Origin: Alkalicella caledoniensis
Lineage (GTDB): Bacteria > Bacillota > Proteinivoracia > Proteinivoracales > Proteinivoracaceae
Reading direction: 5' to 3'
NCBI RefSeq assembly: GCF_014467015.1
Contig: NZ_CP058559.1
Location: forward strand, 434,001-498,000
DNA: 64,000 bases
Below are positions 7,327 through 62,581 of this stretch, one piece after another. Each line of letters starts with the position of its first letter. Position 1 is the stretch's first letter. Under the pieces are notes generated by a model. The model had not been told where the DNA came from. It did not search any database and worked only from the letters and a program-made list of their open reading frames with translations. The position numbers were made by a program, and so were the translations under genes.

Positions 7327-8595
7327 TTATGCTGTGTCGCTTTTTTTGCGTTTTTTCTTTGCTGTTTTTTCACCAGTTACTATTATTGGGTCTGCACCCT
7401 CAGTAATGGTTTCTTTTGTCATTATGCATTTACTAATATCAGTTCTTGATGGAATGTCAAACATGATATCTTGCATAAGCTTTTCCATGATAGCCCTTAA
7501 TCCACGAGCACCAGTTTTTCTTTTGATAGCTTCAGCTGCAATTTGGTTTAAGCATTCATCATGGAACTCTAGGTTAACGTTATCAATACTGAATAGTTTT
7601 TGATATTGCTTCACTAGAGAATTTTTAGGCTCTTGTAGTATCCTAATTAAAGCATCTGTATCTAATGCATCTAATGTAGCTACTACTGGTACCCTTCCTA
7701 CAAACTCAGGTATTAGTCCAAACTTGAGTAAGTCTTCAGGTAAAATATTTGTTAATACATCACCAATGTTTATTTCATCCTTACTCTTTACTTCAGCCCC
7801 AAAACCTAATACTTTTTTACCTGTACGATTTTGGATAATTTTCTCTACGCCATCAAATGCTCCACCACAGATAAATAGTACATTTGTAGTATCAATCTGA
7901 ATGAACTCTTGATGAGGGTGTTTTCTTCCTCCTTGGGGAGGAACAGATGCAACAGTTCCTTCTAAAATCTTTAAAAGTGCTTGTTGAACACCTTCACCAG
8001 AAACATCCCTTGTAATAGAAGGATTGTCAGATTTTCTAGCAATCTTATCAATCTCATCTATATAAATAATACCCTTTTCTGCTTTTTCCACATCATAATC
8101 AGCTGCTTGAATTAGCTTCAATAAGATGTTTTCAACATCTTCGCCTACATAACCGGCTTCAGTTAGTGAAGTAGCATCCGCGATGGCAAAGGGTACGTTT
8201 AGTATCTTAGCTAAGGTCTGAGCTAGAAGGGTTTTACCAACACCAGTTGGCCCTATTAAAAGAATGTTACTTTTTTGCAGGTCAACTTCATCACTATCAA
8301 CCTCGGCTTTAATACGCTTGTAATGATTGTAAACTGCAACAGATAGTCCTCTTTTAGCATTATCTTGACCAATTACATATTGATCTAAGATATCTTTAAT
8401 TTCCTTTGGCTTCGGTATATCTGTAATATCAAGCTCTACTTCCTCTGCAAATTCTTCTTCAATGATTTCATTGCAAAGTTCAATACACTCATCACAAATA
8501 TAAACGCCTGGGCCAGCAACTAATTTTCTTACTTGTTCTTGCGGCTTACCACAAAAGGAGCATTTCAGATTACCTTTGTCCTCGTTAAATTTCAT
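7327..8595 (-). CDS. clpX: ATP-dependent Clp protease ATP-binding subunit ClpX
   Basis: AAA+ unfoldase that feeds substrates to ClpP. The N-terminal zinc-binding domain has Cys pairs C12/C15 and C34/C37; Walker A GPTGVGKT is at residues 115-122, and a GYVGEDVE pore-region motif and an IYIDEIDKI Walker B follow. At 422 residues it is full length. It starts 14 bases after clpP, so the two are co-transcribed, and a strong terminator follows. No CtsR operator (tandem GGTCAAA) is seen upstream of clpP. Confidence 0.97.
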
Positions 8596-59273: not shown

Positions 59274-59348
59274 AGAGGATTTATTTAAAACTGAGCTTTT
59301 CTTTTTTATGTAGTACAGTATTATCAATTAAATATGGAGGGGATTTTT

Positions 59349-60317
59349 ATGGGTTTACGTTTTAGAAAAAGCATTTCATTAGGCAAGGGTGTTCGTTTAA
59401 ACATTAGCAAAAGGGGTGTTGGAGTAAGTGCCGGTGTTAAAGGTGCACGGGTGGGTATAGGCCCTAGGGGCATACGGAAAACTGCTTCTATCCCTGGTAC
59501 AGGGATTTCATATGTTGAGGAAAAATCCTTAAGTAGCTCAAAGAAAAAACGCAATAATTATAATGGTGCCAGTGGGACAGAAGGTTCTAATAATCTAAGG
59601 TCCAGTATTCCAACGCAAAGTTTAACAGGGACTCATTGGGTTTGGGGTATTATTTTAGGATTTGTGCTTATTTTTAATAATCCTATTGTGGGTTTACCTT
59701 TACTGGGTACCTCTTTTTATTTTTTTAGAAAGAAAATGCATGAACCTCAAAACAAGTCAAAAACTGAATACAACAAAGGTGTCTCAGAGTTTAAAAAGAA
59801 CAATTTAGATCGTGCAAATTCCTTCCTTGATAGGGCTTTACAGTATGACCAATCAAATCATATGGCTCGATTATTATTGACAAATATAGCCTTTAGCCAA
59901 GGAAAGTATGATAAAGTATTAGCTAACTTAGAAAAATTACCCGATGCAGTATACGACGACCCTAGCATCTCATTTGCTGCTGCCATAAGCAATTTTTCTT
60001 TGAAAAGTTATGATAAAGCTATCCCTCTATTACAACAATTAAATAACATAGAAGGATACCAAGACGAAGTAAGTATTTTTTTGGGAAGGTGTTTTTTGGA
60101 AAAGGGTATGTATACTTTAGCTGTAGAGTCCTTTAAAAAAGGTCCAGTGCTAAAAAGAACCATGAATCCAGTGGTCATGGAAGCGAAGTATTGGTTAGGT
60201 GTAACTTACATTAAATTAGGCGATAATAAAAAAGCTAATACTCAGCTGTCCAAGGTATATGCAGAGGATGTGAATTTTAGGGATGTGGCAAGGTATGTTG
60301 AGGAGTTAGGTTTTTAA
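59349..60317 (+). CDS. DUF4236 domain protein with TPR repeats
   Basis: 322 residues. The N-terminal DUF4236 (1-58) begins MGLRFRKSISLGKGVRLNIS and contains RGVGVSAGVKGARVGIGPRG. Two short hydrophobic segments follow (about 95-125), and the C-terminal half (145-320) has at least four TPR-like helices, such as YNKGVSEFKKNNLDRANSFLDRAL broken over 146-170 and YWLGVTYIKLGDNKKANTQL near the end. Function unknown; TPRs suggest protein binding at the membrane. GGAGGGG precedes ATG. The next gene is the HesB-type selenoprotein, 68 bases on. Confidence 0.83.
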   Translation: MGLRFRKSISLGKGVRLNISKRGVGVSAGVKGARVGIGPRGIRKTASIPGTGISYVEEKSLSSSKKKRNNYNGASGTEGSNNLRSSIPTQSLTGTHWVWGIILGFVLIFNNPIVGLPLLGTSFYFFRKKMHEPQNKSKTEYNKGVSEFKKNNLDRANSFLDRALQYDQSNHMARLLLTNIAFSQGKYDKVLANLEKLPDAVYDDPSISFAAAISNFSLKSYDKAIPLLQQLNNIEGYQDEVSIFLGRCFLEKGMYTLAVESFKKGPVLKRTMNPVVMEAKYWLGVTYIKLGDNKKANTQLSKVYAEDVNFRDVARYVEELGF

Positions 60318-60385
60318 AGGGTTTAAAATAGGCTTGGTTTTTATTTTTTATTTTTCGGGAAAACTATTTCAAAGGAGGTTATGCT

Positions 60386-60673
60386 ATGATTGAAGTGACT
60401 AAAGCAGCTACAGATCATATTGAGAAAGTAGTTAAGGATGAAGACAAAAGTATAGAAGGAAATTTTATTAGACTATACATGGCTGCTGGTTGAGGTGGCC
60501 CACAATTACAACTGGCTCTGGAAGAGTCAGCAAAACCCGATGACACAGAGTTTTCCCAGAACGGTATTAAGTTTCTTATAAGTGAAAAAAATGCACCTTA
60601 CTTCCAAAACACTAAGCTAGACTTTGTAAAAGGAGTCTTCGGTAATGGGCAGTTTAAATTGTTAAAAATCTAG
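60386..60673 (+). CDS. HesB-like selenoprotein (in-frame UGA read as selenocysteine)
   Basis: 95 residues if UGA at 60491-60493 (codon 36) is read as selenocysteine. AAAGGAGG sits seven bases before ATG. The sequence around the UGA is MAAG-U-GGPQLQLAL, matching the HesB/IscA-type motif CGGPQ with Sec for Cys, as in the known family of HesB-related (seleno)proteins of Clostridia. Reading frame continues cleanly to TAG at 60671. A bSECIS-type hairpin lies 18 bases past the UGA (60512-60530). The product probably binds or delivers iron-sulfur or a metal; exact role unknown. Standard translation would cut the gene into a 35-residue stub. Confidence 0.9.
60491..60530 (+). promoter_or_regulatory. 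UGA codon and bacterial SECIS hairpin
   Basis: After the UGA (60491-60493), CTGGCTC (60512-60518) pairs with GAGTCAG (60524-60530) with one G-U, closing a five-base loop TGGAA whose second base is G. Distance from UGA and a G in the first two loop bases fit the described bacterial SECIS consensus bound by SelB. Confidence 0.8.
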
Positions 60674-60693
60674 TAATCTTAAAGCATAATAAA

Positions 60694-62581
60694 CAAAAGA
60701 GGGTGTCGCAAAACTACTGAATAAGTAGTTAGCGACACCCTCTTTTTGTTAAAAAAAATAGGATATTAATAAATTTTAAGTGCAGCAAAGAGAAATTTTC
60801 CTAAGAGTTTGTTTTTAGACGCACTTAAATAAGACTATAGAATATTAGTCTTTTCAATCTCCAAACTATGAGACTTTCAGTTCATGAAGGTGATGCCCAC
60901 AGCGCCCATTCTTAAGCTTGGCATGAAGTTTATTCATGTTATAGCCTAAGCCTAATAGAAGTGTTTCTACACTCACGCTGTGGATACCTCTTGTCAAAAA
61001 TCTTTGAAATCCATAATCTTGCTTTAGAACTCCAAAAGCACCTTCAGCCTGAATAGACCTGTTAACCCTGAGTTTAACTCCGTTTTTAGACACTATATTT
61101 TGATATGATATTTGCCTTTTCTCTATAAACTTTTTAGATACCTGTAACTTTTTGTTACCTTGTGCTTTTGTACATTTAGGCTTAAACTGACAGTTTGTAC
61201 AATCCTCACATTCGTACACAGTGGCTTCAGATTTATAGCCAGTTACTGATGTTCTAATGATTTTACCAGTAGCTTTTAATTTCTTGTTGTTGTGACATGT
61301 ATACTCATCGAGCTTAGAATCATAAACCATATTTTCGCGCTTGCTTATATCTTTTTTAAAGCTTCTTTTTTTCCATCTATCATAAGTCTGGGGTTTTATA
61401 TAGTATGTATATCCCTTCTTTTCGAGGAAAAGGTAATTTTCCTCACTTTCATACCCAGAGTCTGCAATTATGTTTTTATACTTTAATTTTAATCTTTCCT
61501 CCATCTTTCCTAGGAAGGGGATCAATGTACCAATATCTGATCTGTTTTGGAATACTCCTACGGATACTATATACTCACTCTCTACACCTATTTGCAAATT
61601 GTAGCCAGGCTTTAGTTGAGAGTTTCTCATGTGGTCATCTTTCATTCTCATAAAAGTAGCACCTGTATCTGTTTTAGAGTAACTACTTCTACCTTGGAAT
61701 ATTTCATTGCATGAATCGTACTTCACTTGTCTTTCATAAAATGACTGCACTTCCTCAGTAAATTTTTGAAGCTTACTTTTTCTTTTGCCGATTCCATAAA
61801 CAAATTCTACTTTTCCCTCTTCCTTCCTTTGCTTTAAGAAGGACAATATGCAGTTTAAATCGTCTAACATTCTCTCCTTGGAAACTATAAATTCGACACT
61901 ATAATGTTCATTTAAATCTCTCAAGAAGTTCTGTACTTTATCAAACATCTTAGCTTCATTTTTCTTTACGACCTTATCCCATACAAACGTATATTTATTT
62001 GCATTGGCTTCTATTTTTGTCCCATCAATAAAGAGATTCTCAAATTTAACTTCACCTATTTCTTTTAAATGTAAGATGAATTGGTAAAACAAATCTTCAA
62101 CTGCATTAGATAAGTAAATCTTTCGGAACCTTGCAATAGTGCTATGATCGGGGCATTTATTTCCCTCTAATAGCCACATAAAATTTATATCTCTTTTGCA
62201 TGCAGTTTCAATTTTTCTACTTGAATAAATGTTATTCATGTAAGCGTAGGTTAACACCTTAAAAAGAAGTTTTGGTTCAACTGCTGGTTTTCTTCCCTTA
62301 GAAGAGTATGCCTTGTATAAACCTTGATAGTTTAATCCCTCCAATATTTGGCTTAGCAGTCGAACAGAATCATCTTCAGGTATTAAAGTTTCTAAATTTA
62401 ATGGTAAAACTAATTGATAACTACCATTAAATCGGGTATAATATGAGTGTTGTGTATTTGTTCTCATAAACCAATTATACAACACTAGCGGACCCTTTGG
62501 GCCCGCTTTTTATTATTTTTATACAAAAAAGAGGCTGAATGCACAATGAATTATTCATTCATTGTGCAACAGCCCCTTTTG
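60694..62581 (-). mobile_element. IS1182-family insertion sequence
   Basis: About 1,888 bp bounded by imperfect inverted repeats. The left end (60694-60713) and the complement of the right end (62562-62581) agree at 16 of 20 positions (CAAAAGnGGnTGTnGCAnAA). Each end carries a long hairpin with T-runs: GGGTGTCGC ... GCGACACCC at 60701-60740 and GCACAATGAAT ... ATTCATTGTGC at 62540-62567. One transposase gene inside, intact. The right end stops one base from the tyrS stop codon. No direct target repeats are evident. Confidence 0.8.
60866..62467 (-). CDS. IS1182-type DDE transposase
   Basis: 533 residues. The N-terminal DUF772-like helix-turn-helix domain (about 15-110) has EPKLLFKVLTYAYMNNIYSSR; the DDE domain has FIDGTKIEANANKYTFVW (first Asp), IIADSGYESEENY (second Asp) and the final Glu near QAEGAFGVLKQDYGF. 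A Cys cluster (CEDCTNCQFKPKC) lies between, as usual in this family. Reading frame unbroken, so the element may be active. ATG at 62467 is preceded closely by TATAAT; a TTG six codons upstream is possible. Confidence 0.92.
   Translation of the reverse strand: MRTNTQHSYYTRFNGSYQLVLPLNLETLIPEDDSVRLLSQILEGLNYQGLYKAYSSKGRKPAVEPKLLFKVLTYAYMNNIYSSRKIETACKRDINFMWLLEGNKCPDHSTIARFRKIYLSNAVEDLFYQFILHLKEIGEVKFENLFIDGTKIEANANKYTFVWDKVVKKNEAKMFDKVQNFLRDLNEHYSVEFIVSKERMLDDLNCILSFLKQRKEEGKVEFVYGIGKRKSKLQKFTEEVQSFYERQVKYDSCNEIFQGRSSYSKTDTGATFMRMKDDHMRNSQLKPGYNLQIGVESEYIVSVGVFQNRSDIGTLIPFLGKMEERLKLKYKNIIADSGYESEENYLFLEKKGYTYYIKPQTYDRWKKRSFKKDISKRENMVYDSKLDEYTCHNNKKLKATGKIIRTSVTGYKSEATVYECEDCTNCQFKPKCTKAQGNKKLQVSKKFIEKRQISYQNIVSKNGVKLRVNRSIQAEGAFGVLKQDYGFQRFLTRGIHSVSVETLLLGLGYNMNKLHAKLKNGRCGHHLHELKVS

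Follow-up and report, generated by a model that had tools for sequence, protein, structure and literature searches.

Does the UGA codon within positions 60386-60673 of the window, by which we mean the whole stretch of 64,000 nucleotides from Alkalicella caledoniensis, end a reading frame, or does it specify selenocysteine (Sec)? The frame runs from an ATG through 35 codons, TGA, and 59 further codons to a TAG stop (Table 1), and its translation with TGA as Sec is MIEVTKAATDHIEKVVKDEDKSIEGNFIRLYMAAG-U36-GGPQLQLALEESAKPDDTEFSQNGIKFLISEKNAPYFQNTKLDFVKGVFGNGQFKLLKI; both this arrangement and the ribosome-binding site had been described in an earlier note on this DNA and are exact to the base. The six-frame list of standard-code open reading frames (≥60 amino acids) has no entry here, which means that standard gene calling would miss or truncate the gene, as the note had broadly expected. 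An open frame after a TGA is weak evidence by itself, since 2.6% of the TGA trinucleotides across the window have at least 59 sense codons after them; the case for this locus therefore rests on homology and comparison. These indicate that the protein match and the conservation of the UGA are not chance, and the locus is almost certainly a genuine HesB-like selenoprotein gene, an assessment that covers the gene and excludes the molecular function of its product.

Table 1. Features of the predicted selenoprotein locus, in window coordinates
Feature	Position	Strand	Basis
Strong ribosome-binding site aaaggagg	60371-60378	+	Sequence; 7 nt 5′ of the ATG
Predicted HesB-like selenoprotein gene, Sec at residue 36, TAG stop	60386-60673	+	Translation with TGA = U, 95 amino acids; homology and comparison
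Predicted UGA selenocysteine codon	60491-60493	+	Aligns with the first ligand Cys of IscA-type carriers
Putative bacterial SECIS hairpin, 7 bp stem, loop UGGAA (60519-60523)	60512-60530	+	Comparison and published model limits

Domain family and selenocysteine machinery

Profile searches of the 95-amino-acid protein, run with Cys at the Sec position, gave a match to PF01521 (47.5 bits, E = 2.4e-12; Pfam cut-off 26.3). A profile of 45 homologues compared with the PDB matched IscA, SufA, AQ_1857, and HI1723 and placed the Sec column at the first ligand cysteine (GCSG) of IscA-type carriers; together with the PF01521 match, this alignment confirmed the HesB/IscA-type motif, with UGA at the conserved Cys, that the earlier note had proposed. 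The AlphaFold model computed on the alignment (pLDDT 93.4) has IscA 1r94, IscA 1x0g, and SufA 2d2a among its best PDB matches by Foldseek (TM ~0.7-0.8). The protein resembles IscA/SufA/ErpA in its predicted fold and in the first-ligand position, but differs from them in having Sec for the first ligand Cys and no C-terminal CxC.

HesB-like selenoproteins are a family already known (PMC1794560; PMC13188914), with the motif UxGP (PMC13188914); the existence of such a family, which the earlier note had named as known, is borne out by these papers and by the curated model TIGR01911 (HesB_rel_seleno). The motif at the Sec of the window protein is U-G-G-P, which fits UxGP, and by its sequence the gene belongs to this known family (TIGR01911, UxGP), with which it shares the HesB domain, Sec at the first ligand Cys, UxGP, and an equal distance to the SECIS element; the SECIS hairpin itself recurs in the UGA homologues that were found in the phylum. 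Unlike 30 of 31 others sampled, the window protein has no C-terminal Cys tail; its C-terminus is FGNGQFKLLKI, and there is no Cys anywhere in it. The best NCBIfam match was NF038090 (IscA_HesB_Se; 50.9 bits, cut-off 85), which stops at residue 83 and leaves the C-terminus uncovered; TIGR00049 was also among the best. The TIGR01911 score (21.4 bits) did not reach the cut-off of 66.35, which was reached in none of 299 genomes and by one of six non-clade proteins scanned; many other UGA HesB genes also fall below this cut-off, which therefore does not discriminate. Alignment of the product with HesB-like selenoproteins, as the note had suggested, upheld the domain family and the Sec position and left two discrepancies, namely scores below the cut-offs of the curated models and absent C-terminal cysteines. 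In a tree of 62 homologues, the window gene falls into a Sec-only clade (support 100/97) composed of the family of the window organism, relatives from its class, and Cytobacillus.

The genome is complete, as a single contig of 3,695,371 bases (3.70 Mb). A genome search found selA, selB, selD, and tRNA-Sec, in agreement with the SelA/B/C/D that had been inferred; the objection that the genome might lack the machinery falls away. These genes lie in one chromosomal locus, selA-selB-lysR-selD(UGA)-selC-fdhD (fdhD named from its sequence), with tRNA-Sec at C1:2186552-2186644 (73 bits; anticodon TCA by ARAGORN) and a selD that itself contains an in-frame UGA (GUGAKIGP). This selD (L017:7453-8478; genome C1 ~2185452-2186477; context STAAGUGAKIGPG) has a standard-code open reading frame that starts late, at 7624. 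All 12 genomes tested for selB have a match above the curated cut-off, and all 12 tested for tRNA-Sec have one above the gathering score, Cytobacillus included.

The candidate SECIS hairpin and the conservation of the UGA

The hairpin that the earlier note had placed 18 bases past the UGA, with loop TGGAA, is exactly there (CTGGCTC-TGGAA-GAGTCAG; UGA-to-stem 18 nt, UGA-to-loop 25 nt). In sequence and geometry it fits the published bacterial SECIS model, which allows loops of 3-9 nt, stems of 4-16 bp, and UGA-to-loop distances of 16-37 nt and requires G at loop position 1 or 2 (PMC13188914); the loop here has 5 nt with G at position 2, and the stem has 7 bp. The model includes a free-energy criterion, too (PMC13188914). 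Folding of 76 nt of the window alone gave a stability that is not unusual (z -0.04); single-sequence folding energy, being not significant as SECIS evidence, was replaced by comparative tests.

The loop UGG and its distance are unchanged in 14 of 14 clade members, and every one of the 45 UGA homologues has U-[GU]-G there, one of them after a codon insertion. Among 32 distinct homologues, 90.6% of stem cells are paired and five of the seven pairs have changed on both sides; none of 500 shuffles equaled the observed paired-cell percentage or covariation score, and pairing falls to 24-46% in slid versions. Because the SECIS stem sits inside codons, synonymous recoding of each gene served as a null. 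Under this null, about 165 paired stem cells were expected in the 45 Sec genes, which have 290 of 315 paired (null maximum 257; one seed was used for all rows, which inflates the spread, and the observed total still exceeds the maximum), whereas 17 Cys homologues have 42 paired stem cells vs 40 expected. This excess in Sec genes and not in Cys homologues, from which the hairpin is absent, shows that it goes with the UGA and not with the protein motif. Support for the hairpin as a putative SECIS element comes from its position, from comparison, and from covariation, and folding energy adds none.

The window genome and the four other genomes of the family all have the UGA at the same codon, and a UGA gene is present in 12 of 13 class genomes, window genome counted; in the exception no homologue was found, yet selB and tRNA-Sec are present. 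The copy in G002 has a second TGA in a frameshifted N-terminus. A single-protein scan of genome contigs found no homologue; an alignment-based scan then found Cytobacillus, two genomes of which have UGA homologues, selB, and tRNA-Sec. In Cytobacillus sp. NCCP-133, the homologue (L019:4860-5210) has an apparent frameshift 5′ of the UGA, inside an inverted repeat, which is either real or an assembly error. Beyond the UGA, comparison with the nearest relative gave Ka 0.24 and Ks 1.48 (Ka/Ks ~0.16), a strong indication of purifying selection downstream of this codon. Homologues in close relatives that end at the UGA had been named as grounds for rejecting a selenoprotein; the opposite was seen, with the UGA kept and the frame open beyond it.

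A pseudogene, i.e., a Cys gene that acquired a stop by point mutation and whose downstream frame is a relic, would explain a UGA inside a gene, which is formally a nonsense codon, and gene remnants exist in a related genus (L015, L016). This genus (G001/G002) has two gene copies (L015, L016, L012, L013) in draft assemblies in which errors are possible: of one copy, G001 retains a UGA-less remnant and G002 a frameshifted version, while the other is intact in G001 and truncated in G002. The decayed or frameshifted appearance of syntenic copies in this one genus suggests that the gene is not indispensable everywhere. A relic is at odds with a UGA kept in at least 14 genomes from several families, with strong purifying selection beyond it, and with a full Sec machinery and a covarying SECIS hairpin; the pseudogene reading is very improbable, and conservation already refutes it. 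Suppression or reassignment of the UGA (to Trp or Gly) is less credible still, as no points in its favor were found, the codon occupies the column of an invariant Cys, the gene has a SECIS hairpin and the genome SelB and tRNA-Sec, and in related genomes UGA continues to serve as the stop codon of other genes (e.g., L027, L044).

The Cys-free branch and its neighborhood

Cys is absent altogether in 13 of the 14 clade members, and the remaining one has a single internal Cys; among the other UGA HesB genes, 30 of 31 have a Cys within the last 15 residues (C-terminal Cys in the clade vs others, Fisher P = 2.6e-9, relatedness ignored). Two further members found in the phylum (L103, L105) also have no C-terminal Cys. 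No Cys version close to the Sec-only clade was found among 398 genomes, and no scanned clade member reaches the cut-off of any NCBIfam model. The branch was not found described in the literature searched, with subscription papers mostly outside the search, and no paper was found on selenoproteins in Anaerobranca. The window genome has two IscU-type matches, with no SUF core (PF01458) and no further PF01521 protein. Tentatively, and with slightly less than even confidence, the clade may be regarded as a distinct HesB-like subfamily in which Sec is the sole nucleophile and ligand and the chemistry is selenium-dependent; the window organism, with an IscU-only (SUF-less) Fe-S system, would have no other protein of the A-type fold. 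Dependence on selenium is suggested by the finding of no Cys-only version in the clade and by the loss of the C-terminal cysteines.

Neighbor sets differ between families (DUF4236-TPR/LysO; Pyr_redox_2 flavoprotein; Mur ligase with ABC ATPase and UPF0014 protein), and function was therefore not assigned from operon context and no functional link is claimed. An orthologue in a second genus lies in synteny (LysO, DUF4236-TPR, HesB, and TyrRS); the DUF4236-TPR protein directly 5′ of the selenoprotein gene (59334-60317) is retained beside it in two genera (L093, L095) of the family. Members of the class from other families (L096, L099, L100) have a UPF0014 (FetB-like) membrane protein and an ABC ATPase within a few kb of the gene, a possible link to iron export; in L096, a Mur ligase adjoins the HesB-like gene. 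On the 3′ side in the window, a strong inverted repeat (60690-60751; 23 nt arms, 87%) with a T-rich stretch after it is either the terminator of the selenoprotein gene or an end of the neighboring mobile element. A DDE transposase gene (60866-62485, minus strand) lies between the selenoprotein gene and TyrRS and is likely to be a recent insertion, being absent from the corresponding place in G002 (L093).

Possible chemistry of Sec36

Sequence, machinery, and comparison together support the prediction that SelB with Sec-tRNA(Sec) binds the hairpin and that the ribosome decodes the UGA as selenocysteine 36. The product would be a 95-residue selenoprotein of the IscA/HesB (A-type carrier) fold, with Sec36 on the loop of IscA's first ligand cysteine. 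As the C-terminal CxC ligands are gone, the predicted translation shows no side chain other than Sec36 that could serve as an S/Se nucleophile. By the criterion of three Cys ligands including a C-terminal CxC, the window protein is not an A-type Fe-S carrier, and in the absence of the CxC ligands it cannot bind a cluster as IscA does. Within the clade, which has no C-terminal cysteines and usually no Cys, the selenolate must act without CxC ligands or a resolving Cys. The selenolate may hold a soft metal ion or an Fe-S species, probably across a dimer interface; we favor this reading, in which Sec36 of an oligomer supports metal or Fe-S chemistry, over a selenol redox enzyme and regard it as about as likely as not.

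In the alternative, Sec36 would react as a selenol needing an outside reductant, and the protein would be a redox selenoenzyme that carries out peroxide, persulfide, or thiol chemistry and depends on thioredoxin or a low-molecular-weight thiol to recharge it. A redox role is presumed for most uncharacterized selenoproteins (PMC13188914); in addition, the G004 gene is just upstream of a Pyr_redox_2 flavoprotein, and G001 has such a flavoprotein and a likely thioredoxin ~2-3 kb off. This neighborhood is not conserved between families, however, and the protein has neither a UxxC/CxxU motif nor a resolving Cys; with no Cys at all, an internal selenenylsulfide is impossible in the window protein. 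Redox enzymology is plausible but rather less probable than not. HesB-like selenoproteins are known from computational work, and in the archaeon Methanococcus maripaludis one of them (MMJJ_08070) was identified by mutagenesis and 75Se labeling, and its disruption mutant was unimpaired in nitrogen fixation (PMC11097638); by description it is a member of the HesB-like family like the window protein, but it uses the archaeal SECIS system.

The analysis delimits the gene and its putative SECIS element correctly in a genome where standard calling would lose them. It also indicates that HesB-like selenoproteins have a Cys-free branch, found in anaerobic Bacillota and in some Bacillaceae; this branch is the part that goes beyond the coverage of curated models. 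With a single Sec and no Cys, the predicted protein would be an unusually clean model for the function of HesB-like selenoproteins, in which any metal or redox chemistry would come from Sec.
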